Below are positions 25,800-64,000 of a stretch of DNA of 64,000 bases, in pieces. Source of the DNA: Lunularia cruciata (lineage: Eukaryota > Streptophyta > Marchantiopsida > Lunulariales > Lunulariaceae); NCBI GenBank assembly GCA_948567375.1, contig OX419755.1:5399001-5463000 (forward strand). The letters are read 5' to 3'. The notes beneath the pieces were generated by a model. The model saw only the letters and a list, made by a program, of their open reading frames with translations, made no database searches and had not been told where the DNA came from. Positions within the stretch are counted from its first letter, which is position 1. Each line of letters opens with the position of its first letter. The position numbers and the translations under genes were made by a program.

Positions 25800-27345
25800 T
25801 AGCAAAAGGAGTTTGGGGGTGGGGGGAGGCAGAAAAATGGGGAAGTGTTTTGGCAGGAAAGAAGTTTGAGAAGGGAGAGAATTATCAAGAGTTTTGGGCT
25901 TGGGAAGAAGAGAGGATTATCAAAGATTTTGCAGGAGAGAGATATCGAAGTGTTTTGGCAAGACGGAAGAATTGGGAAGGGGTTTCTGCAGGAAAGAAAG
26001 AGAAAGAGAAATCCAGAAAGAAGATTTTGAAGGAGAGAGATATCGAAGTGTTTTGGCAGGACAGGAGAGAGATATCAAACTGTTTTGGCAGGACAGAAAG
26101 AGTCGGGAAGGGGTTTCTGCAGGGAAGGGAAGGAAAGAGAAATCCCAAAAGGATTTTGGCAGGAACAAAGAAATCTCAAAGGGTTTTGCAGAAAAGAGAA
26201 ATCCCAAAAGGAGAGAGATATCAAAGTTTTTTTGGCAGGACAAAAGAATCGGGAAGGGGTTTCTGCAGGGAAGAAAGAAAAAAGAGAAATCCCGAAAGAA
26301 GATTTTGCAGGAGAGAGATATCAAAGTGTTTTGGCAGGACAGAAGAGTGGGGAAGTGGTTTCTGCAGGGAAGGGAAGGAAAGAGAAATCCCAAAAGGATT
26401 TTGGCAGGAACAAAGAAATCTCAAAGGGTTTTGCAGAAAAGAGAAATCCCAAAAGGATTTTGGCAGGAACAAAGAAATCTCAAAGGGTTTTGCAGAAAAG
26501 AGAAATCCCAAAAGGTTCTTTGCAGGGGAGAGATATCAAAGTTTTCTTGGCAGGACAAAAGAATTGGGAAGGAGTTTCTGCAGGGAAGAAAGAAAAAGAG
26601 AAATCCCGAAGGGTTCTTTGCAGGAGAGAGATATCAAAGTGTTTTTTTTGCAGGACAGAAGAGTCGGGAAGGGGTTTCTGCAAGGAAGGGAAGGAAAGAG
26701 AAATCCCGAAAGGATTTTGGCAAGAATAGAGAAATCTCAAAGGGTTTTGCAGAAAAGAGAAATCCCGAAGGGTTCTTTACAGGAGAGAGATATCGAAGTG
26801 TTTTGGCAAGACAGAAGAATCGGGAAGGGGTTTCTTCAGGGAAGAAAGAGAAAGAGAAATCCCGAAGGGTTCTTTGCAGGAGAGAGATATTGAAGTGTTT
26901 TGGCAAGACAGAAGAATCGGGAAGGGGTTTCTGCAGGGAAGGGAAAGGAAAGAGAAATCCCGAAAGGATTTTGGCAGGAACAGAGAAATCTCAAAGGGTT
27001 TTGCAGAAAAGAGAAATCCCAAAGGGTTCTTTGCAAGAGAGAGATATCGAAGTGTTTTGGTAAGACAGAAGAATCGGGAAGGGGTCTCTGCAGGGAAGAA
27101 AGAGAAAGAGAAATCCCGAAAGGGTTCTTTGCAAGAGAGAGATATCAAAGTTTTTTTGGCAGAACAAAAGAATCGGGAAGGGGTTTCTGCAAGGAAGAAA
27201 GAAAAAGAGAAATCCCGAAGGGTTCTTTGCAGGAGAGAGATATCGAAGTCTTTTTTTTTGCAAGACAGAAGAATCAAGAAGGGGTTACAACAGAGAAAGT
27301 GAAAGGAAAGAAAGAGAAAATGTTTTGAGGAGAAATGTTGCAAGA
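25800..27345 (+). repeat. GA-rich higher-order tandem array (~97- and ~158-base units)
   Basis: At least twelve units are anchored by AGAGAGATAT. Anchor spacings are about 97 (26214-26310, 26527-26623, 26782-26880, 27038-27135) or about 158 (26623-26782, 26880-27038), plus one of about 217. The long unit is the short unit with an extra 60-base module (GGATTTTGGCAGGAACAAAGAAATC type). The + strand is so purine-rich that stops are rare, so long frames run in two or three registers on + and also on - (412, 389 and 188 codons). The predicted peptides are only reiterations of basic and glycine residues, so I read this as non-coding satellite-like DNA. Confidence 0.85.
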
Positions 27346-27680
27346 GAAAAGTGAGGGTTTTGGGAAGAAATTGAAGGTTGACAGAGAGGATCTTGGCAGG
27401 AAGTTTTCAAGAGATCAGTAAGGTTTTGAGAGGAACTTCAAGTGGAGAGGTTCTTGACAGGGAGTTTCCGGAAGATCAGTAGGGCTGGAGAGAAGCTTGA
27501 AGTGATAGGGATTTTAAGAAGAAATGTTGCAGGAGAACAAAGAGGGGTTTTGGGGAAACTTCAAGTGATAGAAGGTTAGGGAAGAATCAAGAGCAAGTCA
27601 AGAGCGTAGACCAGAAGTACAGAGCAAAAAAGGGAGAGAGAAAGGTGGTCTTGGATGAATGAAAAGATCAGTGGAGGTCA
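27346..27680 (+). repeat. Degenerate continuation of the GA-rich array
   Basis: The purine bias continues, with repeated phrases such as GAGAAATGTTGCA.GAGAA, GGGTTTTGGG.A.A and TTGACAGGGAGTTT, but with no regular period. Confidence 0.55.
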
Positions 27681-30659: not shown

Positions 30660-31460
30660 AGTTCTTTTTAATTCTTTTTTAGCTTTGAGAGAGTACCTTG
30701 ATGGACAGAAGAGAGAAAGGAGTTTTGGCTTCAAGGTAGTGCTTCAAGGTGGTGAAAGGTAGGAGAGAGAAAGGAGTTTTAGCTTCAAGAGATTGCCTTG
30801 AAGGTGAAGAGAGAAAGGAGTTTTAGTTTCAAGAGAGTGCCTTGAAAGAGAAGATAGAAAGGAGTTTTGTTGCTTCAAGAGGAAGCTTGAATAGGACAAG
30901 AGGAGGCTGATAGGATTTTTACTAAAGGAAGTGCTTTGGCCAAGAGGACAAGAAAATTTGAGAAGGGGAGTTTTGGGCTGGATAGGAGGGCAAGGAAATT
31001 TTCTCGAAGGAGGAGCTGGAGAGTGGGAAGAGAGGGAAAAAAGAAAAATCAAAAAGGGAGAGTGGGTGGAAGAGCTTGTGTGCTGAAGGAGCAAAATTTT
31101 GAGGAAGAAGACTTGCTTGGATAGAGGAGAGATTAATCAAATGTGAGGTCTAGAGAGGGAGAGATAGGGCTGGGCTTGGACAGCAAGAGTGGAGATTTTT
31201 GAAATTAGACTTGTGCAAGACAGAGGAAGAGCAAGGAGAAGGGAAGAATTTGAGAGAGAGAGACAAGGCTGGGCTTGGACAGCAAGAGAGGAGATTTTAA
31301 AATTGAACTTGTGCAAGATAGAGGGAGAGAAATTGGATGTGAAGGGCTGGAAAGAGAAGGGCAGAGGAGAGGGTTTTTGAAGGAATAGCTTGTAATTGTG
31401 TAGGAGTTTGAAAGTCTGGAGGGAGAGAGAGAAATTGAATGTGAAGGGTTTTGTGTAGGT
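30660..31460 (+). repeat. GA-rich repeat block, 5' flank of gypsy copy A
   Basis: Phrases such as GAGAGAAAGGAGTTTT.G.TTCAAG.. and GGGCTTGGACAGCAAGAG recur several times. The block resumes on the other side of copy A (41365-42450), so copy A is inserted in a pre-existing GA-rich region. Confidence 0.6.
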
Positions 31461-31912
31461 TGTCACGCCATTTGTAGTGCCGCATCTAGATTGCTCGGAC
31501 ACTGGAGTTCCAGTGATAGTAGTTAGAGTTATTTCAGCAGTATCTCAGAGACTACTTTTCGAAGGTCAGATTTTGTGTTTGGGGTACTGACTTCATGGTG
31601 GGGCCCACTGTCACTTTGCACCGTTTGCACCGTCGAGTGTGCCGTCAGCGGGACCGTTAGGGTTTCAGAGCTAGCTCAAGTCCAAGGGGTATAGTTTTGA
31701 AGTGAGCTCTAGAGAGCTCACTTCTCTGATGTTGAGCCTTCGAGTTCTTGGCTATGGTGGATAGAGGTCGGCGAGCATCACCTGGATTCTCTATGCTTGA
31801 GTGGGTGTGGCTTGACTGTAATCAATGCCCAATTGTTGGCAGTTTATAAAGTGATAGATCAAGTACTGATCTGAGTTGAGTTGAGTTGAGAGTGGTAAGC
31901 AATCTGATTACA
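31461..31912 (+). repeat. 5' LTR of copy A
   Basis: It starts TGTCACGCC and matches 40823-41258 (3' LTR) and 54900-55351 (copy B). The similarity to copy B continues past it into the leader. The similarity to the 3' LTR stops at CTGATTA(CA). A TATAAA lies at 31845-31850. A TGGTATC (31965-31971) agrees with the first seven bases of the initiator-Met primer-binding site, but sits 52 bases further in. By eye, the first 115 bases differ from the 3' LTR at about one position in twelve, mostly C to T or G to A, so the insertion is old. Confidence 0.75.
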
Positions 31913-32639
31913 GCAGGAGAAGTGAAGTTAGGGAGAAATTGGGTGCAGGAACTTTGAGTGTTGGTGGTATCTCCAAGCTCGGTGGATCGTTGGTAGCTCA
32001 ATTCAAGTTCAGTGTTTTCCTAGTGTGCAGAAGCTCATTCAATTGATGTAGATTTGGCAGTTAGGCGGACGGTGTGCAGAAGCGCTGGCCAAATTTTGAG
32101 CAAAGAAGGAGCAAATTTCAAGCAGTGGTTGTGATTTTGAGCTCAAGAGGTGAAGGCAGGACCAATTTGCTACGAGTTGGGCTCAGAAAGTCAAATTGAA
32201 GGTGGAGTTGTGAAGCTATTCTCATGAATTTGTGATTTGGAGAAACCCGTGTTGTCAATCTGGCTCGAGTGGAAAGTTAGCGGGGGATTTGGCGGACAAC
32301 CAACTTTAGGGTTTATATCAGATTTTACGTCAGATTTTGGTTGGGGTTTATGTCAGATTTTGGCCAGATTTGGAGGAGTTTTGCTAGTTTGGCGGACTTT
32401 TGTAGATTTGGAGAAGTTTTGCCAATTTTGGAGGAGGTTCGAAGTGGCAACAAGAAAGGTCTCATTTGGCTGAATTTTGGCGTTTTGAGGCTTTGAGGCA
32501 TAGGGCTATGGGCTATGAGAGGCTACAAAGGCCTAGAAGGGCCAACAAGCCAGCTTGTTGGCATGAGGCTAGCTAGTTTAGAGTAGATCTTGGTCATTGG
32601 TTGGCAAAATTTGCCTTTCTTGCTAGATTATGCACAATA

Positions 32640-33251: not shown

Positions 33252-34560
33252 ATGACGGAGTTCTTTGGAGATTTTAGAGGAGTTAGCCCTGCAGTACACA
33301 ATGGGTTTACTCGGAGTGGTGCTCGGTATCAGCCTGTATCTTAGGTCCCAGTAAGGAAGTAGATTGACTCTGAGTTGGAGTTTGACAAAGGAGCTGATTT
33401 AGTTGGAGTGCACTTGGTGTGTCCGCACCGTTGTTGTGGAACATGGACGAGATTTATGGGGCCTCCAAAGGCTCTAGGCGTTACTCTGGTATAGTGGGTA
33501 CCATTGAGTTGGATGACTTCATCCATGAGTTTGATAGTTGGTGTGATTTGTAGCAGATGCGGAACCCGACTTTGTTCACACCCTTCATGGCATGGAAGGC
33601 ATTGTTTCAGCATCTAGAGGGTCCGCCGATGGATGACTACCATGAGTTCAGGAGAGCTCATTTGGAGGAGATTGAGTTATGGAGACAGTATTGGTCTCCA
33701 CACTATGTCTCCATCACTTTAGGGTTGGTGGCTAGGAGTAGATCGGCTATACCTACGAGTTCTAGCTTGAGTAGTGTGGGTGGAGCTAGTGGAGGTGCAC
33801 TAGCTGGAGATAGTGCTACTACGATTGGAGGTAGTGTTGCAGGAGGTGGTGTGGTACCGGGGTTTAACCCCATGGTGGAGTTCTTCCTGTGTTGGAGGCA
33901 GAACTACCAGGGAGTGCGGACTGACAAGCTAAGGAGCTTGCAGGAGTTCCAACGGAAGGCTGGAGAGAGCCTACGTGAGGCATACACTCGCATAAGGCGG
34001 CTGATCAGTTTCACTTAGGGAGTTACTGAGGCCCCAGCAGTCCAATTTTGGTATGGGATACTAGACAAGGAGTTGCGACGTAGAGTTTGTGATGTTATGT
34101 TGTTGTAGGCTACTTCGCTCACTTTGGCAGTGGTCTTTGGTTTGGCTGAGCATATTGAGCTCAACATGGTGGAGGAGAGAGTGGTGACATCTGGATTTGG
34201 TAGGGAGACCTCATCCACGGCTCTGACTTCTTCTAGAGTGCAACAAAGTGCACCACGCCTAGTTGGTTTTCAAGGACAAGGTGGACAGCCCAGATCCTAT
34301 GGAGCGAGTGGAGGGCCTAGTGGAGTTAGACCCTTACCCTCATTTTTGAGTCAGCAATAGCCAATGAGTGGTAGTGTTGCTTGTTGGACTTGTGGTGGAC
34401 CTCACCATCGGAGAGAGTGTACTCAAGGCAGTGGACCTAATACCTCGGGTGCATCACAGCCAGCATAGAGGCAGTGTGAGCATTGCCACAGATTTGGTCA
34501 CACTAGTGACCAGTGTTTTGACCTACACTTGGAGTTACGAAGTGGTAGGGCTACTATGGT
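33252..34560 (+). pseudogene. gag of copy A (capsid and two CCHC zinc knuckles)
   Basis: The probable start is ATG 33252 (MTEFFGDFRGVSPAV...). A frameshift before about 33550 moves the frame, which then runs to the protease. The stretch 33557-34018 includes the retrotransposon-gag signature LQEFQRKAGESLREAYTRI. Zinc knuckles are at 34382-34420 (CxxCx4.5Hx4C type, CWTCGGPHHRREC) and 34475-34516 (CEHCHRFGHTSDQC). They would bind RNA in the virus-like particle. In-frame TAG stops at 34016, 34358 and 34466 correspond to Gln codons in related positions. Confidence 0.8.
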
Positions 34561-35860
34561 AGGTAGTAGAGGAGCTCCAGTTCATGGAGGACAAGGTGGT
34601 AGAGGTGGTGGTAGAGGATCTACACCTAGTAGGAGTGCAGTACCTGCCCTTACTTCTGACACAACTATGGCTACTCGGATTGAGCAGTTGGAGCAGAGAT
34701 TGGCTAGTATGGCTATTGCTCAAAGGAAATCAAATTTGGGTGCTGAGGCTTCCACCTCATATGCTGGTGATAGAGATGCTTTGGACTTCATGTGCAGAGC
34801 AGCACAGGTGGATGCATCTGCAGTAGTGACTAGGAGTGCAGTATGTGCTCCAAAGCCTAGAGGAGCATCAATGGAGTTGGACCCACAAAGAGGAGAGGTT
34901 AGGAGACAGGTCAGACTTCCCCAGTCTTTCACGCTATCTGAGGCATTGCAGACAACATCCATGGTTCCTAGACATCCTAGTGTAGGTGTGGTAGGTGGTG
35001 ATGGAGTACATGATGGACTACCTGCTAGTCAGCCACTTGCTACTATAGAGACTGAGTCTAGCATGATGTTGGGGGTGGCTCAGCTGATTATACGGCATCC
35101 TTTGTTTTCAACTAGTGATATGTTTACATTGGGAGTTGACTCAGCCCCAGTATTCCGGTTGGCTGCCACGTTGTGTGAGAGTAGGGATGGTGCAGTTCCT
35201 ACTACTAGAGCAGAGGTGGTTGGTAGTGGAGCTGACTTGGTTGAGGAGCATGGGATCCGTTCAACGACCAGTGGTTTATGGCAGGCAATAGCGGCTAGAT
35301 TGGAGGAGTTGCCAGCTAGATCGGCCTTTGAGAGAGCACGGTTCACACCTGGTGTTGTCCTATTGGATAACCAGAGGGGGATTTTTTTTTTGGTGGGACC
35401 TTCAGGGAAGGTCTATACACCACAGAGAGTCTTGTTAGACTCCGGTGTGTAGCCCCTTATGTTGGGGAAGGCTACAGTTGTCGGTCTGGAGTTACGGAAG
35501 ACCGATGTGGAGAGGTATCTATTTCAAATGCAGACATCTCTAGGTGGTGGTTCAACACAGTATATCACACGTGGGGAGCTTGTTGTCCAGGTTCAGCCTG
35601 GTCATCCGACTGATAGCTCGGTGGTGAGAGCTCAGGCTATTGCAACAATAGTTGAGTCATATGATGTGCTAGTTGGGGGGCAATGTTATACCCCATGGGT
35701 TTCAGCATTGACTATTAGGAGGAGACAGCCTCTTATAGACCTGGTTGGCAGTCTGGTGAGGGACAGGTATATTGCCTACCAAAATGCTTCAGTAGTAGCA
35801 GTCTTGGCTCACTACAGTCCAGGACCATGGCAACATCAGTTTTAGCTTTTAGTGGTGCAG
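34561..35860 (+). pseudogene. gag-pol linker and aspartic protease of copy A
   Basis: A low-complexity Gly/Arg/Ser linker and a coiled-coil-like segment (IEQLEQRLASMAIAQ) lead to the retropepsin core: LLDSG with the catalytic Asp codon at 35438, then PLMLGKA and, further on, ESYDVLVGG. The protease would mature the Gag-Pol polyprotein. TAG at 35450 stands where copy B has CAA, and another TAG lies at 35843. A frame change near 35860 separates it from the methyltransferase frame. Confidence 0.8.
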
Positions 35861-36108
35861 TTACTTGGCCTGGTGACTTGTTAGAGGGGAACGCCCATGT
35901 AGAGGATACTCCAGTACTAGAGGAGACCACTCGGCTTTGGATTACAAGTGGGATTGTTCCATCCACTTTGGATGTTCCATTGTGGAGTTTAGAGGAGGCA
36001 TTGCAGTAGCATGCAGATCAGTTGGTGCAGCAGGCTTGGAGTGGAGCCTTTGTACCATCAAGAGATGAGTGTGAGGATGAGCCTCCAGAGGCGATTGCTT
36101 TGACACCT

Positions 36109-37112
36109 CTGGATATCACACTCATTGCTTGGCAATATCCAGTAGAGTGGATATGCATATTGGAGTTGTTTGGTGGGTTCAGCACCGGACTAGCTGCGGT
36201 GTTATAGGTGGGTATCCAAGTATAGAGGTACTTGTATGTAGAGAGGGATGAGACTGCTAGGCGAGTCTCTCTATATCATGTGGCACACTTGGCCTATTGG
36301 TATCCAGAGTTATTACCAATGTCAGCAGTCAGAGGTTACCAGAAGGCCCTACCAAGAGACATTTCCTTGTTGGGGGCGCATGACCTAGAGAGACATGGGC
36401 CTATTCACTTGGTGATTTTTGGATGGCAACGTCAGGGACATACACGTGCTGGTAGAGGATTGGGTCTTTAGGATCCTTGTTTAGTGTGTTTTGGGAGATG
36501 TTACGGATACTACGACATCTCCAGGTTCATCAGTCTATTTCTCCAACTTACCTTTTGGAGAACGTTCCTTTTGATGGGTGATTCTCGCACTAGAGTTATG
36601 GCAAGTACACATTAGGTCCATTCTTGGATGGGACCTACTGTATTGTTAGATGTAGCTAGAGTGGGATCACGGGCTTATTGTCTTCATCTTTGGTGGACGA
36701 ACCTCTTACCCAGAGAGGTTCTACAATGTGCTTATGATGGGATTCAACGACTGGACCACATTCTTGTTGATGATATCTTGGATGTTGGGCGTCAGTCTTA
36801 GACAGTGGTAGTAGCTGATAGGTCACCTATGGTAGTGGTGAACCTAGTTGGACAGTCTAGAGCCGCATTTCCCACACTCATGAGTTTCCCAGGCTCTCAT
36901 GCTTTTTGAGAGAGAGGACCTAGACTTGTTTGGGACTCACAGTTACAGCAGTTGGTGGAGCCCAATGTTGATGAGAGAGAGCGGGCAATGGGTTTTTGCA
37001 TCAGTATTATCGCTGTTCCAGTAGTGTCAGAGGCATCCAAGCGTCAGGTGTTAGGTCAGGCTATGGACCTAAATTGTTTGACCTGGATTGTGAGCCTTGG
37101 CTTGGCAGAGTA
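36109..37112 (+). pseudogene. DNMT3-like cytosine-C5 DNA methyltransferase domain in pol of copy A
   Basis: The domain would transfer methyl groups from S-adenosylmethionine to cytosine C5. Motifs in canonical order: I, ILELFGGFSTGLAAVL at about 36157-36204 (SAM pocket); IV, LVIFGWQRQGHTRAG from 36406, where the P-C pair is Q-R, so the catalytic Cys at 36430 is lost; VI, LLENVP at 36552-36569 (catalytic Glu 36558); VIII, ARVGSRAYCLHLWWTNLLP at 36655-36711; IX, ERERAMGF near 36980; X, VLGQAMDLNCLTWIV near 37048. Unrearranged order excludes DRM-type enzymes, and no chromodomain sits between I and IV as in chromomethylases. LFGG/DG.STG, R.R...WTNL and the E.ERAMGF...R..LGQ block fit DNMT3 best. 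Stops at 36205, 36226 and 36469 and shifts near 36485, 36570 and 36905 disable it. Confidence 0.85.
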
Positions 37113-38490
37113 GCGTAGGATGCGCTTGATAAGCATCACCACTCGGACACTTGTGAGCCCTGTGCCTATCGAGACGATTCAGGCACATTTTGGAGGCAAT
37201 GGACCGAGTGGACATGGTATTCTTGGGACACATCCAATAGCTACTAGGGAGAGTGGTTTACTCGGAGTCCATCCAGGTGAGCGTGGGCTACTTGGATTAA
37301 CCCTTTGGTCCACATGGGATGCAACCAAAGGATGTGTGGAGCTTGCAGCGAGAGTGGAGGGAGTTTTTCACACAGAGGTTGGGACCTCTAGTGGTCGGGA
37401 GCATGATGCTATTGCTCCCAAGGGCCCATTGTAGCAGGCAGTCAGTATGTCTTCCACTCCTACTACAGTTACAAAGGATACTTGGGAGCTAGATCTTGGA
37501 CCCAAGCTTACTAGAGAGGAAAGACGGAGGGTTTGGAGGTTCTTGAGGAGTCACATGAGTTGTTTTGCCTTCAGTATGAAGGATTTGGGTGCTCTGAAGG
37601 GACTTGGTATACGGATTGAGCTGACTAACGACACACTAGTTTTCCAACATCCTTATCGATATAGTGATATGGAGAGGACATTGATTTAGAGCCGGAGTAG
37701 TGACCTTTTTGAGGCTGGTTTGGTAGAGATTTCACATGGAGAGTATGCATCAGCGACAGTGATGCCAGCCAAGAAGGATATGCATGGCAACTATACAGAT
37801 AGGCGGATGTGTGGAGATTACCGTCCTATCAACCGACAGACCAAGGCTGATTGGTATGCAATGCCTACACCGGAGGAGATTTTTGATGCAATTAGGCATG
37901 CAAAGGTCTTCAATACTTTGGATCTTCGAGTGAGATATCATTAGTTGCCAATCAGGAAGGGGGATAAGTCCAAGATAACATTTTGGGCTATTGATCCTCA
38001 TGGTAAGGATGTGATATATCAGTGGAGGCTCTTACCATCTGGGTTAAAGATTGCTCCTGTTGAGTTCCAGAGGGTCATGGATAGGATCCTAGCTGGATTG
38101 GATTTTGCTTGGTGCTATATTGATGACATTTTGGTTTATAGCACTACTGCGGAGGAGCATGAGAGACAGTTGTTGGAGGTGTTTGAGAGATTGAGATCTC
38201 ATGGACTCAAATTACATCTTGGGAAATGTAGGTTCTTCCACAAGCAGGTTGAGTATTTGGGTCACACTATCTACCTCGGAGGACTTGGTGTTCAACAGAC
38301 CAAGGTGGAGGCTATTGCACGTATTCCTCGGCCTACAGATTTGAGTAGAGTGCAAGCATTCCTTGGGTTGGCAAACTTCTATCGCCGCTATGTTAGAGGA
38401 TTTAGTGCCATTGCTAAGGCCTTGACGAAGCTGACCAAGCTTACACATGAGTGGTGCTGGGAGATGAGCAGGAGAGAGCTTTTGTAGAGC
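37113..38490 (+). pseudogene. Reverse transcriptase of copy A
   Basis: After a connector (37120-37440), the RT begins with DLGPKLTREERRRVW..L. It shows the strand-2 block MCGDYRPINRQT, the thumb-side LPSGLKIAPVEFQRVMDRIL and the catalytic box CYIDDILVY (Tyr-Ile-Asp-Asp at 38116-38127), followed by CRFFHKQVEYLGH and QAFLGLANFYRRYVRGFSAI. This is the usual Ty3/gypsy RT layout. It lies in the same frame as most of the methyltransferase, so the two were probably parts of one polyprotein. Stops at 37687 and 37942 are TAG. The catalytic residues themselves are intact. Confidence 0.9.
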
Positions 38491-38925
38491 TCAAGGAGAG
38501 GTTGACATCTGCTCCTATTTTGAGGAGACCAATTAGGGGATGACCATTTCAGGTTCACACTGATTGGAGTATGTTGGGGCTTGGAGCGGTGCTCACCCAG
38601 CATGATGATGAGGAGAAGGAGTTTGTGGTGGCCTATGCTAGTTGCTCCAACAATTCAGCAAAGGCAAAGTATAGTTCATATGAGGGAGAGTGCTTGGCAG
38701 CAATTTGGGCAGTAGCACATTTCCGATGTTACCTATTTGGTAACCCCTTCACTCTCATCATTGATCATCAGCCGCTGAAGTGGTTGAAGGAGTCCGACAA
38801 GCTTTCAGGGAAGCTTGCATGAAAGGCTCTGATTTTACAAGAGTATGATTTCACGGTTGTTCACACACCTGGAGTGGTGAACCGTGATGCAGATGGGTTG
38901 AGTAGAAACCCATGTCCCAGCTAGT
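38491..38925 (+). pseudogene. RNase H of copy A
   Basis: The domain starts with [16 protein letters not shown] (first acidic residue), then [15 protein letters not shown] (Glu) and LIIDHQPLKWL (Asp), ending in a VVHTPGVVNRDADGLSR tether. This is the typical gypsy RNase H that removes the RNA template. A frame change near 38,465-38,540 separates it from RT, and a TGA lies at 38820. Confidence 0.85.
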
Positions 38926-39099
38926 AGGATCAGACCGGAGCACGTTGGCATGGTGAGACAGATGAGGAGATGGTGCCAGGTTGGCATGCATCGGCCTTTC
39001 TATGTATATTTGCAGAGGCTTTGGTGGTATCTCTCTCAGCACATACAGGAGGAGTTATTGAGGTCATAGATCCAGAGAGTGAAGATATTGGTATAGTTT

Positions 39100-39845
39100 A
39101 GCGAGACATTCATGATGATGTCTTAGTGATGGACTATCTTTGCATTGGTGTTGTGGGTGGCATAGTTGGGGCCAAGGAGAGAGACCGTGTTCTTCAGCAA
39201 GCAAGACGATTCAGATTGGAGGGTAGACACCTTTTGCGTGTATGGAAGGATGGTAGAGTGCGAGTAGTACCACTTCCATCACAGAGACCACAGTTGGTCC
39301 GTCATGCTCATGAGGAGCTAGGACATTTTGGAGTAAAGTGTACATATAGCTTACTCCAGAGTCATTATTGGTGGCGCGGTATGCAGACCAAGGTACATCA
39401 ATTTGTTGCCAGATGTGTGGTTTTTGATCGAGTTAGAGCATCATTCAATGCTCCTACGCCATAGTTACACCCATTACCTATCATGGGATTGGGTTACCGT
39501 TGGAGTTTGGACTTTGCCAGACCTTTACTGCTGACTGTGAGACATCATTGGTATGTTTTGGTGATGGTGAAGCACTTCTCCAAGTGGATTGAGTTGGTGG
39601 TACTTCTTGACAAGTCTAGTGAAGGGACAACTTACTCGTTTCTGAATCAAGTTCTTAGTCATTTTGGTGCACCAACTGAGGTTTTGACTGATCAGGGTAC
39701 AGAGTTCTTGGGGGAGTTTCAAGTCTTGTGTGACAAGGCTTTGATTGATCATCGTACTACATCCCTATATCACCTTGATGCAAATGGCTTAGCAGAGAAA
39801 GTGGTTCAGACGGTGAAGAGAGGATTGCGAAAGTATGGTTTGTAG
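39100..39845 (+). pseudogene. Integrase of copy A (HHCC and DDE core)
   Basis: The zinc-binding part has HAHEELGHFGVK and WWRGM...VHQFVARCVVFD. The last Cys is Phe here but Cys in copy B. The core has WSLDFA (first Asp), LTDQGTEF (second Asp) and a Glu about 35 residues further (NGLAEKVVQTVKRGL). Integrase would join the cDNA to host DNA. Stop codons at 39462 and 39843 break the frame. Confidence 0.85.
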
Positions 39846-40070
39846 AGAGGCCACTTGAGAGATTGGGATCTCCAATTACCTTGGTTGGCCATGGACTATC
39901 GGTTTAGCCGGCAAGCCTCCTTAGCATCCTTCTCTCCATACTTTCTATTATATGAATGAGATCCAGATTTACCTGCAGCTATTTGTCGAGATGCTACTGT
40001 AGTTTTGGACTTGGATGACCCCGATGTATGGATGAGTGCATGTTCTTAGTGGGCAGAGATCTTTTGGAGA

Positions 40071-40545
40071 GTGATGCCGATGGCCTTTGAGAACTTGGCA
40101 ATTGCTCAACATAAAGATACTTTACGCTATGCTACCATTCAAGGAGGAGGTTATAGACCCTCGATCCGTCAATTTCATCCAAGCAATTATGTATATCTAC
40201 AGCAGACAACACTGATGACACTTGATGTTTCTACAGGCCGCACTATCTTGAGAGTGCGTGAGGCTTTGCCATCTGGAGTCCTTGTGTTAGAAGGATGTGA
40301 TAGTGTTGTTTGGAAGGATTATGTACGCAATTGTGCGCCATGCCACCTCCCAAACATTGATGGTACTATGGACCCAAGCTTGGCACTTGTATGTGTAGGC
40401 TTGAGATGTATGTTATGCGGCTCTTCTGGTGGAGCTGCTACTATGTTAATGTGTGATAGCTATTCGAGAGGATGCATATGGCATGTATGACTCCTCCCCT
40501 CATGGTGGTTCCTCAGGGACTGTGGTTATGTCCTAGATGTACTTA
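40071..40545 (+). pseudogene. Integrase C-terminal module and PHD finger of copy A
   Basis: A beta-rich segment (RQFHPSNYVYLQQTT, then LRVREALPSGVLVLEG), like a GPY/F or SH3-type integrase tail, is followed from 40407 by a PHD-type zinc finger: C-x2-C-x11-C-x2-C-x4-H-x2-C-x14-C-x2-C, ending in LCPRCT and TAA 40544-40546. PHD fingers read the N-terminal tail of histone H3. One Cys codon (copy B TGT) is TAT here, and one G is missing in AGGATG(G)CATATGG, which shifts the frame at the His. A chromodomain is the usual occupant of this place in chromoviruses. Confidence 0.8.
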
Positions 40546-40704: not shown

Positions 40705-40714
40705 AGGGGGGCAA
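40705..40714 (+). other. Polypurine-tract-like sequence
   Basis: AGGGGGGCAA precedes TTGTGGCACTTTAG. This has the position and look of a plus-strand primer just before a 3' LTR starting at about 40715-40717, 108 bases upstream of TGTCAC. Confidence 0.45.
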
Positions 40715-41364
40715 TTGTGGCACTTTAGAGTCTATGTATGACTTATGTGTGAGTTGTGCTTCTATAGTGTATGATGTTGACAGCGATGTATGTTGTGTAG
40801 TGATGTATATACGCATGACAACTGTCACGCCATTTGTAGTGCTGCATCTAGATTGCTCAAACACTGGAGTTCTAGTGATAGTAGTTAGAGTTATTTCAGC
40901 AGTATCTCAAAGACTAATTTCTGACGGTCAGATTTAGTGTTTGGGGTACTGACTTCATGGTGGGGCCCACTGTCACTTTGCACCGTTGAGTGTGCCGTCA
41001 GCAGGACCGTTAGGGTTTCAGAGCTAGCTCGAGTCTAGGGGGTATAGTTTCAAAGTGAGCTCCAGAGAGCTCACTTCTCTGATGTTGAGCCTTCGAGTTC
41101 CTGGATATGGTGGACAGAGGCCGGCGAGTGTCACCTGGATTCTCTATGCTTGAGTGGGTGTAACTATAATCAGTGCCCAGTTGTTGGCAGTTTATAGAGT
41201 GACAAATCAAGTACGGATCTGAGTTGAGTTGAGTTGAGAGTGGTAAGCAATCTGATTATTGTGGCACTTTAGAGTCTATGTATGACTTATGTGTGAGTTG
41301 TGCTTCTATAATGTATGATGTTGACAACGATGTATGTTGTGTAGCGATGTATATATGCACAACA
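40715..41364 (+). repeat. 3' LTR region of copy A: X-Y-X arrangement
   Basis: Segment X (40715-40822, starting TTGTGGCACTTTAGAG) precedes segment Y (40823-41258, starting TGTCACGCC, equal to the 5' LTR). Y is followed directly by a second X (41259-41364) ending GCACAACA and the AGGT flank. If the LTR is Y plus X (542 bases), the 5' LTR lacks X. If it is X plus Y, an extra X follows. Confidence 0.7.
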
Positions 41365-42450
41365 AGGTGCTTGGACAAAAGAGAGAGGGATTTAGAATGT
41401 GAGGAGTTAGTTGTGTAGGGTTTTGTGCAAGACATAGAGAAGAGAGGGGAATTTTTTAACATTGAAGGGATGTGCAAGAGCTAGAGAGCCTGGACAAAGA
41501 GAGAGAGAAATCAAATGTGAAGGTTGTGTAGGAGCTAGAGAGCTTAAGAAAAGAGGGAAAATTTTGAATGTGAAGAGTTGGTTATGCAGTGGTTGTGCAG
41601 GGTATAGAGAAGAAGAAAGAGATTTTTGAATATGATGAAGGGCTATGCAGGAGCTGGAGAGCTTGGACAAAGAGAGAAATAAAATGTGAAGGGCTTTGTG
41701 CATGACATAGGGAAAAAGAGAGAGAAATCAAATGTGAAGGATTTTGTGCAGGTGCTTGGACAGAAGAAAGAGAATTTTGAATGTGAAGGGCTTTGTGCTT
41801 GGACATAAAGAAGAGAGGAATTTTTGAATGTGAAGAGCTAGTTGTGCATGACATTGGAGAGAAGAGAGAGAATCTTGAATGTGAAGGGCTTTGTGCAAAA
41901 CATAGAGAAGAGAGAGGGGAAATTGAAATGTGAGGGCTGGAGAGATTGGACTGCAGAAGGAAGAATTTCAAAGGAAGGTTAGACAGGAGGGTTGGGACTC
42001 TCTCGAAGGAAGAGTTTGTGGCTGCAAGGAAGAATCTCGAGAGAAGAAGCCTGCTGGACAGAGGATTTCTAAAGAGTGAAGGGGTTTGCTAAGACTAAGC
42101 TGAAAATGAAGCATCAAATGAGTGAGTGAGGTCTGGACAGGGGAACCCTTGAGGAGAAGGACTGTACTGAAAGGAGAGAAAAGGAAGGGATATTTGAAAA
42201 GACTATGCAAAGAAATAAGGATCCAAAGAAAAGGAGTAAGCACTTTGTGACAAGGAAGGCAAAATTTTTGGGAAAAAGAGCTTGGTATGTAGAGAGAGAG
42301 AGGGAAGAAGTTTCAAAGGGACAAGGATGGACAAGGCTGGACAGGGCTGACAAGAAGATTTCCCATAGGAGAAGAGCTTGTGCAAGAGAGAAGAAAATTT
42401 CAAGAGGTTTTGTGCAGGACAGTTGGGAGAGTTTAGGTGGTCATTGTTTA
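41365..42450 (+). repeat. GA-rich repeat block, 3' flank of copy A
   Basis: Recurring phrases GAATGTGAAGGGCTTTGTGC, GACATAGAGAAGAGAG and GGAGCTAGAGAGCTT repeat at irregular 40- to 70-base intervals. This is the same repeat family as 31140-31460 on the other side of the element. Long minus-strand frames here are only a product of base composition. Confidence 0.7.
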
Positions 42451-49282: not shown

Positions 49283-50360
49283 TGTTGTGCATATATACAT
49301 TGCTACACAATATACATTGCTATTCAACATCATACACTATAGAAGCACAACTCACACATAAGTCATACATGAACTCTAAAGTGCCACAATGTTCAATTCA
49401 TTCTTCCACTTGAATCACTCTCAATCAGATTGGTACTCAATCTTCCACTCAACAATTTGCAAACAATTGAGCATTGATTACAATCAAGCCACACCCACTC
49501 AAGCTAAGAGACTCCAAGTGACACTCACCGGCCTCTATCCACCATAGATAGAAAATCAAAGGCTCAATCTAGGTCTCCAGCCCTAATAGTGCCACTGATA
49601 GTGCAAATGGTGCAAGTGAAAATGGGTCCCACCATGTGATCAATAGCCCTAACATGAAATCTGACCGCCGACAAGTAGTCCATGAGCAACTACCAAAATA
49701 ACTATGATTATTAACACTACTACTCCAACATTCAAGCAAACTAGCTTTGGTGCTAGAAATATCATGACAAATTCTTGTGCATATATAAATTGTTACACAA
49801 CATACATTGTTCATAACATCATACACTATAGAAGCACAACTCACACATAAGTCATACATGAACTCTAAAGTGCCACAATGTTCAATTCATTCTTCCAATT
49901 GAATCACTCTCAATCAGATTTGTACTCAATCTTCCACTCAACAATTTGCCAACAATTAAGTATTGATTGTAGTCAAACCACACCCACTTGAGCTAAGAGA
50001 CTCCAAGTGACACTCACCGTCCTCTATCCACCATAGATAGAAAATCAAAGGCTCAATCTAGATCTCCAACCCTAATAGTGCCACTAATAGTACAAATGGT
50101 GCAAGTGACAATGAGTCCCACCATGTGATAATAGCCATAACATGAAATCTGATCGCCAACAAGTAGTCCATGAGCAACTACCAAAATAACTATGACTACT
50201 AACACTACCACTCCAACATTCAAGCAAACTAGCTTTGGCGCTAGAAATATCATGACAAATTCTTGTGCATATATAAATTGTTACACAACATACATCGTTC
50301 ATAACATCATACACTATAGAAGCACAACTTTGTAGTATACATGCATTCTAAAGTTCCACA
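49283..50360 (-). repeat. Tandem LTR units X-Y-X-Y-X at the end of copy C
   Basis: Segment X (TGTGGCACTTTAGAG on minus) starts at about 50360, 49877 and 49388. The units between are 482 and 489 bases and are nearly identical to each other. They correspond to the X and Y segments of copy A's 3' end. Confidence 0.8.
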
Positions 50361-50529
50361 ATTGGCTCCACTAGCTAGCGGTTAGGTCATTCTAACTCCA
50401 TATAGCCATCTATTCCAAGTATGTGATATGCCTTATGGAGGGCAAAGATCAAGAGGTTGGGTACTATTGAGCCCCATTGTTGTCTATAATCTATATCACA
50501 TAAAGGATGAATTAGCTATAGGTCAAGTC

Positions 50530-50700
50530 AAGTACATCTAGGGCATAACTACTATCCTTGAAGAACCACCATGAGGAGAAGAGTCAAACATACCATATTG
50601 CATCCCCTCAAACAACAATCACAGACCAACATAGTAGTAGCTTCACTAGAAGAGCCACATTACATACATCATAAGCTTGTGCATACAAGTGCCAAGATTG
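50530..50700 (-). pseudogene. PHD-finger remnant of copy C
   Basis: On minus, the sequence is collinear with the PHD-coding parts of A and B (GCTCTTCT.G.GAAGCTACTAC, then CTCATGGTGGTTCTTCA). Stops and shifts occur and several Cys codons are lost. Confidence 0.55.
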
Positions 50701-51151
50701 AGTCTATAGTGCCATCAATCTTTGGGAGGTAGCATGCCATGGCACATAATTGCCCACATGATTCTTCCAAATAACACTATCATGTCCTTCCAACATAATG
50801 ACTTCAAAGGCAAAACCTTATGCACTCTCAAAATAGTGAGGCCTAAGGTAACATAAAGTATTGTTGGTGTAGTGTGTTATACATGTACATAGTCACTTGG
50901 ATGAAATGGATTAATGGTCTATAACCTCTTCCTCAAATAGAAGCATAACATAAGGTATCTCTATTTTGAGCAATTATTAAGTTCTCAAAAGCCATCACAC
51001 ATCACTCTCCAAAATATCTCTGCTCATTTCAGAACATGCTCACCCCATATATGTGGATCATCCAAGTCCAAAACTATACTAGCATCACAACAAATGGTTG
51101 CAAGTAAATCTCGATTGCATCCATAGAGTAGAGAGTAAGGAGAGAAGGATG

Positions 51152-51700
51152 CTAAGGAGACTTGCCAGCTGAATCAATAGCCCATGGCCAACCAAGGTAA
51201 TTGGAGATCCCAATCTCCCAAGTGGTCTCTCTACAAACATACTTACACAATCTTCTCTTCATTGTTTGAATACTCTCTCTACTAAGGCATTCAGGGTGAT
51301 CTTGAGAGGTTGTAAGATGATCAATCAAGGCCTTGTCACACAAGACTTGAAACTCCTCCAAGAACTCTATACCTTGATCATTGAAAAAATCAACTAGTGC
51401 ACCATAATAACTAAGAACTTGATCTATGAAAAAGTATGCCATCCTTTCATTAGACTTGTCAAAAAGTGTCACCAGCTCAATTCACTTGGAAAATTGCTTC
51501 ACTATAACCAAAACATACTGATAATATCTCACAGTCAATAGTAAAGGTCTAGCAAAGTCCAAACTCCAATGCTAATCCAATACCATGATAAGTAATGGGT
51601 GTAATTGTGGCATAAGAGCTTAAATGATGCTCTAACTTGGCCACAAACCACACATCTGCCAACAAACGATTGTACATTGATCTACATACCACACCACCAA
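51152..51700 (-). pseudogene. Integrase of copy C
   Basis: The open part 51472-51152 on minus carries the second half of the core: FNDQGIEFLEEFQVLCDKALIDHLTTS. Upstream, the WSLDFA and HHCC parts are readable with stops. Confidence 0.7.
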
Positions 51701-52219
51701 TAATAACTCTAGAGTAAGCTATATGTATTTTTTACTCCAAAGTGTCTTAGCTCCTCATGAGCATAATGTACCAATTATGGTCTCTAAGATGGAAATGGTA
51801 CTTATTGCACTCTACTATCCTCTCATACATGAAGAATATGTTTGCCTTCCAATCCAACCACATGGTTTGCTAAAGAACACGATCTCTCTCTTTGGCACCA
51901 ACTATACCACCCATAACACCAATGCAAAGATAATACATCACTAAGACATCATCATGAATGTTTCACTGACCTGTACCAATATCTCCACCCTCAAGATATA
52001 TAACCTCAACAACTCCTCTTGTATGTGTTGAGAGAGATACCACCAAAGCCCCACAAAATATACATAGAAAGGTAGATGTATGCCAACTTGGTACCATCTC
52101 CTTATTTGTCTGACCATGCCAATGTGCTTCAATTCAATCTTGCTGGCTAGGACATGGGTTTCTACTCAACCCATTTACATCACAATTCACCACTCTAAGC
52201 TTGTGAATAACCATGATAT

Positions 52220-53260
52220 TATAATCCTATAAAATTAGAGCTCATCATGCAAACTTCCTTGAAAGCTTGTTAGATTCTATCAACCACATTAGTGGTTGAT
52301 GATCAATGATGAGAGTGAAAGGGTTACCAAATAGGTAACATTAGAAATGTGCTACTACCCATACTATTGCCAAGCACTCTCCATGATATGAACTATACTT
52401 CATCTCCATTGAATTGTTGGAGTGACTAGCTACCACAAACTCCTTCCTCTCATTATCTTGTTGGTTGAGCATTGCTCCAATCCCTAACGTACTCCAATCA
52501 TTATGAACTTGGAATGGTCATTCTTTGATTGGTCTCCTAAGAATAAGGGTTTATGGCAACCTCTCCTTGAGCTCTATAAAAGCTCTCTCTTGCTCATCTC
52601 TCCAACACCACTTTTATGTAAGCTTGGTTAGATTCATCAAGGCCTTGGCAATAGCACTAAATCCTCTAACGTATTGGTGATAAAAGTTTGCCAAACCAAG
52701 GAATGTTTTCACTCTGCTCACCTCCGTAGGCTGAGGAATATGTGCAATAGCTTCCACCTTGGTTTGCTAAACTCCAAGTCCTCTATGGTAGAAATGTGAT
52801 CCAAATACTCAACTTGATTACGGAAGAATCTACACTTCCTAGGATTTAATTTGAGTCCATGAGATCTCAACCTCTCAAACACCTCCAACAAATGTCCTTC
52901 ATGCTCCTCCATAAAAGTGTTATAGACCAAAATTTCATCAATATAGCACCAAGTAAAATCCAGTCCTGCTAGGATCTTGTCCATGACTCTCATGAACTCA
53001 ACAAGAGCATTCTTTAACCCAAATAGTAAAAAACTCTATTGATATAATACAACCTTGCCACAAGGATCAATAGCCTAAAATGATGTCTTGGACTTATCCT
53101 CCTCCTTGATCGGCAATTGATGATATCATGCTCAAAGATCCAAAGTATTGAAGACCTTTGCATATCCAATCATATCAAAGATCTCCTCTAGTGTAGGCAT
53201 GGTATACCAATCAGCCCTAGTTTATTTGTTGATAGGATGGTAATCTCCATACATCCGCTT
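52220..53260 (-). pseudogene. Reverse transcriptase and RNase H of copy C
   Basis: The longest open part (52993-52718, minus) gives MDKILAGLDFTWCYIDEILVY. The RT box reads Tyr-Ile-Asp-Glu, so the second catalytic Asp is lost. FFRNQVEYL follows. RNase H with a DHQPL segment lies around 52310-52280. Confidence 0.75.
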
Positions 53261-53389
53261 GTTAGGCTTCACCAATTGTTGTAATTTTGAGTCCCAAACA
53301 AGTCCATGACCTCCCTCTCAAAAATCATAGGAGCTTGGGAAACTCATACATATGGGTAAAATGGCTATCCAACAAGGTTCACCACTGCC

Positions 53390-53612
53390 ATAGATGATCT
53401 ATCAACCACTATCATTGTCGGAGACTAGTGCCCAACATCCAACATATCTTCAATAATAAGGTGGTCTAGTTGTTGAATCCTATCATAAGCACGCTATAGG
53501 ACCTCTATGGGTAAGAGATTTATCCACCAAAGACAAAGATAATGAGCCTATGATCCCACTCTAGCTACATCCAACAACATGATAGGTCCCATCCATAGAT
53601 GTAATTATGAGA
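53390..53612 (-). pseudogene. Methyltransferase remnant of copy C
   Basis: On minus, the segment corresponds to the stretch of A and B that begins at the ATGGGACC.. linker and continues through the VIII motif (LCLWWINLLP-like) to the SP.VVVNLVG segment. Motifs I, IV and VI are missing because the copy is truncated at about 53612. Confidence 0.6.
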
Positions 53613-54899: not shown

Positions 54900-55351
54900 T
54901 GTCACACCATTTTTAGTATTGCATCTAGATTGTTTGTACACTAGAGTTGTAGTGATAGTAGTCAGAGGTATTTTAGCAGTCACTTACAGACTACTTTTTG
55001 ACAATTGGATTTTGTGTTCAAGGTACTGACTTTGTGGTAGAGCCCATTGTCACTTTGCACCGTTTGCACTATCAAGTGTGCCATCAGCGGGACCATTAGG
55101 GTTCCAGACCTAGCTCAAGTCTAGGGGTATACTTTTGAAGTGCAACTCTAAAGAGCTTACTTCTCTGATGTTGAGCCTTCGAGTTTCTGGCTATGGTGGA
55201 TAAAGGCCGATGAGCGTCACCTGGAATCTCTTAGCTAGAGTGGATGTGGCTTGATTGTAATTAGTGCCTAGTTGTTGGCAATTTATAGAGTGACAAATCA
55301 AGTACTAATTTGAGTTGAGTTGATTTGAGTGTTGTAAACAATCTGATTACA
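54900..55351 (+). repeat. 5' LTR of copy B
   Basis: It starts TGTCACACC and ends CTGATTACA, 452 bases, the same length as the corresponding part of copy A. The TGGTATCTCC downstream (55402) is conserved with copy A. Confidence 0.75.
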
Positions 55352-59330: not shown

Positions 59331-59544
59331 CAATACCATAGGAGATCACTCGGATTTGGAGTACAAGTGGGATTGTTGCATCCACCTTGAATATTCCATT
59401 ATGGAGCTTGAGGAGGCATTGCATCAGCATGTAGATCAGTTGGTGTAGCAAGCTTGGAGTGGAGCCTTTGTACTACCAAGAGATGAGCGTGAGGATGAGC
59501 CTCCATAGTCTATTACCTTGACAACTATGGATACCACACTCATT

Positions 59545-60530
59545 GCTTGGCAGTATCCAATAAAGGGAGTATGTCTATTGGAGTTGTTTGATGGGATTAG
59601 CACCGAACTAGTTGTGGTCTTATAGGCGGGTATACGAGTACAGAGGTACTTGTATGTGGAGAGATATGAGACTGCTAGGCGAGTCTCTCTACATCATGTG
59701 GCACACTTGGCCTACCGGTATCCTAAGTTATTATCAATGTCAGTAGTCAGAGGTTACCAAAAGGCCCTATCAGCAAACATTTCCTTACTAGGGACGCATG
59801 ATTTGGAGAGACATGGGCTTATTCACTTGGTGATTTTTGGATGGCCATGTTAGGGACATACACATGTTGGCCAAGGTTTGGGTCTTCACAATCCTTGTTC
59901 TGGTGTGTTTTGGGAGATGTTATGGATATTACAACATCTCCATGTTCATTAGTTTGTTTCTCCAACTTACCTTTTGGAGAACATTCCTCTGATGGGTGAT
60001 TCTTGCACCAGAGTGGTAGTGAGTACACATTAGGTCCATTCTTGGATGGGACCTGTTGTATTGTTGGATGCAGCTAGAGTGGGATCACGGGTTCATCGTC
60101 TTTGTCTTTGGTGGACAAACCTCTTACCCAAAGAGGTTCTATTGCATACATATGATGGGATTCAACGACTAGACCACATCCTTGTTGATGGCATCTTGGA
60201 TGTGGGGCGTCAACCTCAAATGGTGGTAGTGGCTAATAGGTCACCTATGGTAATGGTAAACCTAGTTGGATAGCCTAGAGTCGCTTTTCCCACACTTATG
60301 AGTTTCCCATGCTCTCATGCTTTTGAGAAGGAGGACTTGGACTTGTTTGGGACTCACAATTATAGCAATTGGTGGAGCCCAACGCCGATGAGAGAGAGAA
60401 GGCAATTTGCACCGGTATTACTGCTATTCTAGTAGTATCAGAGGCATCCAAGCATCAAGTGTTAGGTCAAGCTATGGACTTGAACTGTTTGACCTGGATT
60501 GTGAGCCTTGGTTGGCAGAGCAACGTAGGA
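59545..60530 (+). pseudogene. DNMT3-like cytosine methyltransferase domain in pol of copy B
   Basis: The frame is continuous from motif I to past motif VIII, interrupted only by stops. Motif I is LELFDGISTELVVVL at 59578-59622, close to the LFDG..TG of DNMT3. Motif IV is GWPC at 59839-59850, with the catalytic Cys codon TGT at 59848 present but followed by TAG, where copy A has CAG. Motif VI is LLENIP at about 59971-59988. Motif VIII is ARVGSRVHRLCLWWTNLLP at about 60073-60129. A shift near 60300-60400 precedes motifs IX and X (VLGQAMDLNCLTWIV-like at about 60460-60505). Copy B keeps the catalytic Cys that copy A lost, and A has fewer stops near motif X. Confidence 0.85.
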
Positions 60531-63539: not shown

Positions 63540-64000
63540 TCTCAACGGGTAGAGATCTTTTGGAAAGTGATGCCAATGGCTTTTGAGAAGTTGGCCATTG
63601 CTCAACATAGGGATACCTTACGTTATGCTACTATTTGAGGAGGAGGTTATAGACCCTCAATCCGTCAACTTCATCTAGGTGACTATGTATATCTATAGTA
63701 GACAACATCGATGACACTTGATGTTTTGACAAGCCGCACTATCTTGAGAGTGCAAGAGGTTTTGCCATCTGGAGTTCTTGTGTTAGAAGGACGTGATGGT
63801 GTTGTTTGGAAGGATCATGTGCACAATTGTGCGCCATGCTACCTCCCAAATATTGATGGTACTATGGACCCAAGCCTAGCACTTGTACATGCAGGCTTGA
63901 GGTGTATGTTATGTGGCTCTTCTGGTGGAGCTACTACTATGTTAGTGTGTGATAGTTGTTCGAGAGGATGGCATATGGCATGTATGACTCCTCCCCTCAC
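63540..64000 (+). pseudogene. Integrase tail and PHD finger of copy B (cut by window end)
   Basis: The tail holds LHLGDYVYL and LRVQEVLPSGVLVLEG. From 63902 the PHD finger has its first six ligands intact: CMLC, CDSC, and W-H-M-A-C, followed by MTPPL. The last C-x2-C lies beyond the window. This copy shows the finger without the frameshift seen in copy A. Confidence 0.8.

Follow-up and report, generated by a model that had tools for sequence, protein, structure and literature searches.

The closest described relatives of the element reported here are retroelements that carry a cytosine methyltransferase (MTase) of their own. Those of a charophyte alga and of dinoflagellates, correctly named in an earlier note on this DNA, are treated in the available text of De Mendoza et al. 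2018 (PMC5890265). KnitGypsy-Dnmt3 of Klebsormidium nitens combines DIRS-like repeats with Gypsy domains, and purifying selection is reported for it (PMC5890265). Its MTase gave no methylation in yeast, a result that the authors call inconclusive; the dinoflagellate enzymes have de novo CG activity, and the SymbioDIRS-Dnmt3 type methylates CG de novo in yeast (PMC5890265). The presence of DNMT3 in streptophyte LTR elements is repeated in a 2025 paper (PMC12344493), and the host DNMT3 of plants persists up to the gymnosperms (PMC6453930). PHD fingers in CR1-like non-LTR elements are cited in a reference list. A full-text literature search, covering main texts and mostly papers outside subscription, recognised no bryophyte element bearing a DNMT3 and no PHD finger on a Gypsy integrase. 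Apart from the repeat structure of K. nitens, no description of split repeats with a DDE integrase and target duplications was recognised in the full-text literature. The kind of element is already known from one alga; new here are the mosses, the liverworts and the genome of Lunularia cruciata as its holders, with a PHD finger and unusual ends.

The window is a stretch of 64,000 nucleotides of the L. cruciata genome (contig OX419755.1, positions 5,399,001 to 5,463,000) and contains copies A, B and C of a family that is almost certainly of streptophyte Ty3/gypsy type, with a DNMT3-type MTase on the Gag side and split repeats. The DNMT3-type MTase of copy A lies at 36100..37113 on the plus strand, as placed by codon map, profile and tblastn, and a better preserved genome copy aligns there with 335 of its 338 MTase codons. 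This is almost exactly the block of 36109-37112, between protease and reverse transcriptase (RT), that was proposed in the earlier note. The canonical order of motifs I, IV, VI, VIII, IX and X read there is confirmed by the codon map to the genome copy, with motif I at 36160-36192, motif IV at 36424-36438, motif VI at 36547-36570, motif VIII at 36673-36696 and motifs IX-X at 36994-37074. The assignment to the Ty3/gypsy type and the reading of the MTase as DNMT3-like and unrearranged are also supported. MTase sequence is present in all three window copies, so the idea that the block might be missing from other copies does not apply; the collection of further copies, as the note had proposed, extended this to 24 sampled genome loci.

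The MTase block of copy A contains seven stops and a frame slip between motifs IV and VI, and an arginine stands where the catalytic cysteine is expected. Because of the stops and the slip, a Pfam scan of copy A alone found no MTase match at E<=10. The profile search proposed earlier therefore failed with copy A by itself, but succeeded with a profile built from A and B together, with X at stops, which matched 30 PDB sequences at E<=10, 29 of them DNMT3A, 3B or 3C and the best at 8.7e-5. The Calypogeia relative P0112 matched the window by tblastn with 52% identity over 589 columns (E 3e-174), far beyond chance. A chance reading of the motifs is ruled out by the PDB matches of the A and B profile together with this alignment. 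The arginine of copy A, the presence of copy C, the PHD finger, the arrangement of the stop and the split repeats go beyond the earlier note.

By its profile, fold and motif order the MTase is better assigned to DNMT3 than to DRM. In PDB a profile of 17 relatives matched DNMT3A first (1.4e-19), followed by plant DRM (1.7e-10 for 4onj, which we take to be a DRM; 2e-8 for DRM2) and then by DNMT2 and HhaI (2.4e-5 and 5.1e-5). For an AlphaFold model (mean pLDDT 65) 50 fold matches were listed, all of them DNMT3-family entries. The C5-MTase motifs of the element MTases stand unrearranged in the order of DNMT3, and the rearranged order of DRM is not found in them; a DRM identity is ruled out by this order and by the profile ranking. 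Motif IV of the element is PCQ and not the PCN of DNMT3A. A host DNMT3-type exon of this genome also has PCQ, therefore PCN is not a general feature of DNMT3. In a tree of 24 rows, in which the long branches of the Closterium row and the host rows are flagged, the element MTases group together in a single clade (99/99) that excludes host DNMT3, host DRM and human DNMT3A. The label DNMT3-type is a fair one, and a position inside or beside DNMT3 is possible.

The coding anatomy was determined in 20 loci from the list of 123 genome places given below, a sample that leans to young copies because mostly loci with long open frames were chosen. The first frame comprises Gag, zinc knuckles, protease and MTase, the last being fused to the Gag-protease frame, and closes at a TAG in all 20 loci. 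In copy A, where all coding regions are decayed and on the plus strand, the Gag region is at 33461..34228 (codon map to the genome copy; relatives P0116 and P0133), the zinc-knuckle (CCHC) region at 34310..34558 (codon map; motif by eye) and the aspartic protease region at 35336..35847 (codon map). No Pfam match above the cut-off was found for the zinc knuckle in the scans of copy A and of the genome copy, and Asp_protease_2 was weak in the relative P0111 (0.0012, below the Pfam cut-off).

The TAG between the two frames is located at 37432..37434 on the plus strand of copy A, at the position conserved in other copies. MTase and RT had been taken to share one frame; they do lie in the same frame, but this TAG intervenes. 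UAG-CAR-YYA is the leaky stop context of the TMV type. The six bases after the TAG fit CAR-YYA in 19 of the 20 loci, and the same frame stays open for 50 codons past the TAG in each of the eight loci listed. The stop context of copy B fits the leaky pattern by eye, and that of copy A has been altered by decay. Folds near the stop, seen without a shuffled control, are leads only.

The second frame comprises RT, RNase H, an integrase with H2C2 and rve domains, and a PHD finger. In copy A these are the RT at 37651..38457 (RVT_1 3e-23 on part; codon map), the RNase H at 38458..38966 (tblastn; codon map), the integrase with its H2C2 domain, rve core and C-terminal part at 39144..40361 (H2C2 2.8e-16, rve 2.2e-11; codon map) and the PHD finger at 40362..40543 (tblastn of P0120; codon map; PF00628 4e-12 in the genome copy). 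The order of RT, RNase H and integrase and the Ty3-like integrase are those of Ty3/gypsy (Metaviridae), and the best PDB match of the integrase is the Ty3 integrase (1.3e-22). The PHD finger is present in 21 of the 22 rows long enough to show it, and also at the end of Marchantia P0120. In PDB it matches mixed PHD fingers (CHD4, KMT2C/D, KDM5, UHRF1 and others). The chromodomain of chromoviruses sits behind the integrase.

Copy B is on the plus strand, with repeat A1 at 54900..55349, a DNMT3-type MTase at 59518..60523 that retains the catalytic cysteine codon but has six stops and, in the map, four frame changes, and a PHD region at 63858..63998 (codon map) that is cut by the window end. Copies A and B are broken and unable to code for a working MTase. 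Copy C (49285..53595, minus strand) is truncated, having an MTase remnant at 53595-53262 followed by RT to PHD, and its 3' end carries the repeats B-A-B-A-B at 50362-49285. Outside the three copies, a long purine-rich tandem array at 26131-27406, with units of about 28-32, 59, 98-100 and 254-316 bases, has the strongest GC skew of the window. On the minus strand, an exon-like host frame at 18617-19417 is related to Integrator complex subunit 9 (PDB 7bfp, 6.1e-12), and a frame at 14817-15464 has a weak Seipin match (0.0016, below the Pfam cut-off).

Copy A starts TGTCACG with repeat A1 (31461..31910; 90% identity to A2) and closes with repeats B1 (40714..40821; 94.4% to B2), A2 (40823..41258) and B2 (41258..41364), the last ending ACAACA, all on the plus strand. 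It is flanked on both sides by the 4-bp target duplication AGGT (31457..31460 and 41365..41368). A G tract at 40706..40711 on the plus strand, a candidate polypurine tract, is just ahead of B1. The complete order A1-internal-B1-A2-B2 was found in 17 of the 20 loci, the other three (L023, L043 and L051) being without a complete end set; the two identical complete flanking LTRs of Ty3/gypsy elements are replaced by these split repeats. For the ends TGTCACG...GCACGACA an exact 4-bp duplication was found in 15 of 17 loci, against 2 of 272 cross-pairings, and the short target duplication and TG...CA ends of these 15 loci are as in Ty3/gypsy elements. The G tract is immediately 5' of B1 in all 18 loci listed, although somewhat altered in a few. 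The B1/A2 joint CACGACA-GC-TGTCACG is exact in 11 of the 18 loci listed, the rest differing by at least one base, and the A2/B2 joint AATCTGATTA/TTGTG is identical in 15 of 17, L025 and L027 being different.

Within a locus the two A repeats resemble each other more closely than repeats paired by shuffling, and so do the two B repeats (0 of 2000 shuffles in each case), therefore both repeat pairs are recopied in every cycle. Across 18 loci the K2P divergence between A1 and A2 lies between 0.002 and 0.086; copy A has a value of 0.080. Inspection of the 20 loci by eye revealed no tRNA-type primer site beginning with TGG directly after A1, and priming may therefore be unusual. A short palindrome, TCTGAT-TAC-ATCAGA, spans the boundary of A1 and the internal region in most loci listed (about 31900-31915 in the window); this hairpin, seen without a shuffled control, is a lead only. 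In locus L017 a further B-A-B set lies 86 bases past the element's own end, in the stretch 11617-12281. Split direct repeats usually mark tyrosine-recombinase elements. The element has the split direct repeats of DIRS/PAT/Ngaro elements, but not their tyrosine recombinase or their lack of duplication; no tyrosine recombinase match was found in those parts of the sequences that were scanned.

The profile of copies A and B matched 109 proteins among 8000 scored candidates, and two further protein searches gave 41 and 35 matches. The holders among the named rows are the liverworts Marchantia polymorpha, M. paleacea, Riccia sorocarpa and Calypogeia fissa, the mosses Sphagnum troendelagicum, S. tenellum, S. 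jensenii and S. fallax, and the alga Closterium sp. NIES-54; the row of the relative P0026 is labelled as a bacterial MAG. No match named Klebsormidium occurs among the named rows of the three protein searches. MTase and RT are within one protein in P0118 and, by the listed domains, in P0139. The active-site motifs are kept in the sampled genome copies, in the relatives from Marchantia, Calypogeia and Sphagnum, and in a soil-type metagenome contig. An IMG/VR scan gave two distant loci, which were left out of the analysis. A Streptomyces locus (L004) matched at 33%.

The genome of L. cruciata (565.8 Mb, 74 contigs) gave 2161 candidates at first look, and all of the 123 scored places match PF00145 at E<=0.001. 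Of the 28 places examined, 24 map to the element MTase and three are host genes; the remaining one, L007, failed to map to the reference copy and is absent from the codon, variant and PHD counts. The host genes are the DNMT3-type exon mentioned above (L005; best PDB match DNMT3C, 3.3e-16), a DNMT3-type gene that is similar to it by eye (L008) and a DRM with, by eye, the rearranged order (L006). The catalytic cysteine codon is present in 25 of the 26 copies covering the site (24 genome loci, chosen by their PF00145 match, and copy B), copy A being the sole exception.

A distant twin of the element, L003, is on a contig filed under a Synechococcales MAG (a GTDB cyanobacterial MAG) and is probably a misbinned eukaryotic sequence, from an alga in the sample. 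It shares with the genome copies the two frames, TAG-CAA-TCA, the G tract, the B/A joint and the PHD finger. Identity to the genome copy is 52% in the MTase, 65% in RT, 69% in the integrase, 60% in the PHD finger, 43% in the protease and 30% in part of Gag. In the MTase 72% of the fourfold sites differ, and an identity of 52% at this level of change therefore shows that long selection at the protein level has kept the MTase, which was passed on along with the other parts of the element. L003 is circular through an end overlap of 127 bp, which a collapse of repeats in assembly would also give.

Within the genome, MTase variants in at least two copies comprise 43 synonymous and 52 nonsynonymous changes, compared with 39 and 97 among singletons (Fisher p 0.012). 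The same test gave 1e-5 for Gag and 0.001 for the protease, and no signal for RT (0.56) and the integrase (0.61); of two shifted frames used as a control, the first shows a tendency in this direction (0.10) and the second shows none (0.31). This is modest support for purifying selection on the MTase within the genome. Ka/Ks between the MTases of A and B is 0.43 (bootstrap 0.29-0.63), but the control failed, with the shifted frames at 0.38 and 0.92, therefore no conclusion is drawn from it. The integrase comparisons A-C and B-C look misaligned and were left out.

Among 19 A1/A2 pairs, transitions number 186 and transversions 31; C/T differences amount to 0.118 per site at CG, 0.065 at CHG and 0.019 at CHH. 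Deamination at CG and CHG shows that the inserted copies were methylated, by the host, the element or both, and host CMT or DNMT enzymes can explain all of the methylation seen. The earlier proposal that the element itself wrote DNA methylation, either limiting its own damage or imitating host silencing marks, is a hypothesis here and not a result; copies A and B are unable to encode a functional enzyme, and host enzymes explain the deamination equally.

The explanation best fitting the whole, which we hold at about even chances, is that copy A is a defunct member of an old streptophyte family that would mark its own DNA and integrate from a circle. The first protein would be the main product, with the MTase made at the level of Gag and included in the particle; the second part, which would be rarer, would result from leaky reading of the UAG. 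Reverse transcription would begin at a site after A1, extend to the G tract before B1 and give a cDNA of the form B-A-internal-B-A, the ends of which would join to form an A/B joint in a circle. The integrase would then open the B/A joint CACGACA-GC-TGTCACG, drop the GC and insert A1...B2. This circle step is proposed because of the joints, as opening at B/A with loss of GC gives exactly the integrated form. Split repeats, a Ty3-like integrase and a 4-bp duplication together fit integration from a cDNA circle opened at this joint, and the route is slightly favoured. The PHD finger may bind histone H3 tails and help to choose or hold the target. The MTase would put CG methylation on the new DNA, in the particle or on the circle, and host maintenance would keep the mark, so that the new copy would be silent from the outset or be treated as self. 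That the intact MTases of the family act on DNA is likely. Self-marking as the role for which the MTase is selected is the least certain step, suggested tentatively and placed ahead of restraint of the element's own copies. A broader and still more speculative reading is a reader-writer lineage, old in streptophytes, with a DNMT3 packed with Gag, methylation of its own cDNA, a circle with two repeats, a DDE integrase and steering by the PHD finger. The integration route of such a lineage would stand between those of LTR and DIRS elements, with a DDE integrase acting at an internal CA-GC-TG joint.

Other functions of the MTase have to be weighed against self-marking. The enzyme might restrain the element by methylating the integrated A repeats of the family, which would be its promoters, and so limit damage to the host, leaving the cDNA unmarked. 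The excess of deamination at CG and CHG over CHH in the integrated A repeats and the coexistence of many copies in one genome agree with this. Host silencing, however, leaves the same signature, and selection would hardly maintain a gene that hinders its own propagation unless the survival of the host repays it; we consider restraint unlikely, though next in rank to self-marking. It is more doubtful still that a captured host protein has been retained in the particle for a task that is non-catalytic or directed at RNA, such as nucleic-acid binding or RNA methylation. The domain is fused to Gag, that of K. nitens gave no DNA methylation in yeast, and an RNA role is raised by the authors for enzymes of the LINE type (PMC5890265). 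The catalytic Cys and Glu motifs nevertheless persist across relatives that are about 50% identical, and fold and profile match a family that acts on DNA.

The ends and the origin of the element can also be read differently. If the split repeats were ordinary LTRs altered by recombination, integration would be of the normal linear form, and the extra tandem B-A units of copy C and L017 do indicate that repeat number changes by recombination. Against such an alteration, 17 of 20 loci have one and the same order, the target duplications of 15 of 17 sit at identical ends, L003 has the same B/A joint, both repeat pairs are recopied in each cycle, and the K. nitens element also has DIRS-like repeats (PMC5890265), which makes it improbable. 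There is a similarly small chance that Gypsy elements captured DNMT3 more than once, separately in K. nitens and in bryophytes, which is one reading of the word 'independent' in the 2018 paper. The K. nitens sequences are outside the comparison and the Closterium and host rows have long branches, as repeated capture would allow. The element MTases, however, form the single clade described above, the L. cruciata copies and L003 share all modules in order as well as the stop context and the B/A joint, and 'independent' is set against the dinoflagellate elements in the available text (PMC5890265).

MTase-bearing Gypsy elements are extended by these results from one alga to land-plant lineages, including Marchantia, for which genetics is available. 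They make it possible to test whether a transposon writes the very mark by which it is silenced. The combination of split repeats, DDE integrase and target duplications suggests an integration route, and the end structure deserves a separate study.

Compared with known systems, the element shares its catalytic class with the plant DNMT3 host genes (PMC6453930), one exon of which, L005, is in this genome. It differs from these in that the host genes have introns (inferred from the exon-wise match) and a PC(Q)DLS motif IV, and in that the element clade is separate. SymbioDIRS-Dnmt3 and SymbioLINE-Dnmt of dinoflagellates also carry a DNMT on a retroelement, although in other element classes (PMC5890265). 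Elements of the DIRS/PAT/Ngaro group have the same split direct repeats A1, B1, A2 and B2, but they integrate by a tyrosine recombinase, and the target is not duplicated (PMC4157794), whereas the element here has an rve integrase and a 4-bp duplication. Compared by description, KnitGypsy-Dnmt3 is likewise an LTR Gypsy element whose coding part includes an unrearranged DNMT3 domain; a PHD finger, a target duplication, a leaky stop and land plants do not appear in its available text (PMC5890265). Chromoviruses are also Ty3/gypsy elements with a chromatin-reader domain (PMC2864245, PMC3350952), but theirs is a chromodomain, and the element described here has a PHD finger instead and a DNMT3 added.
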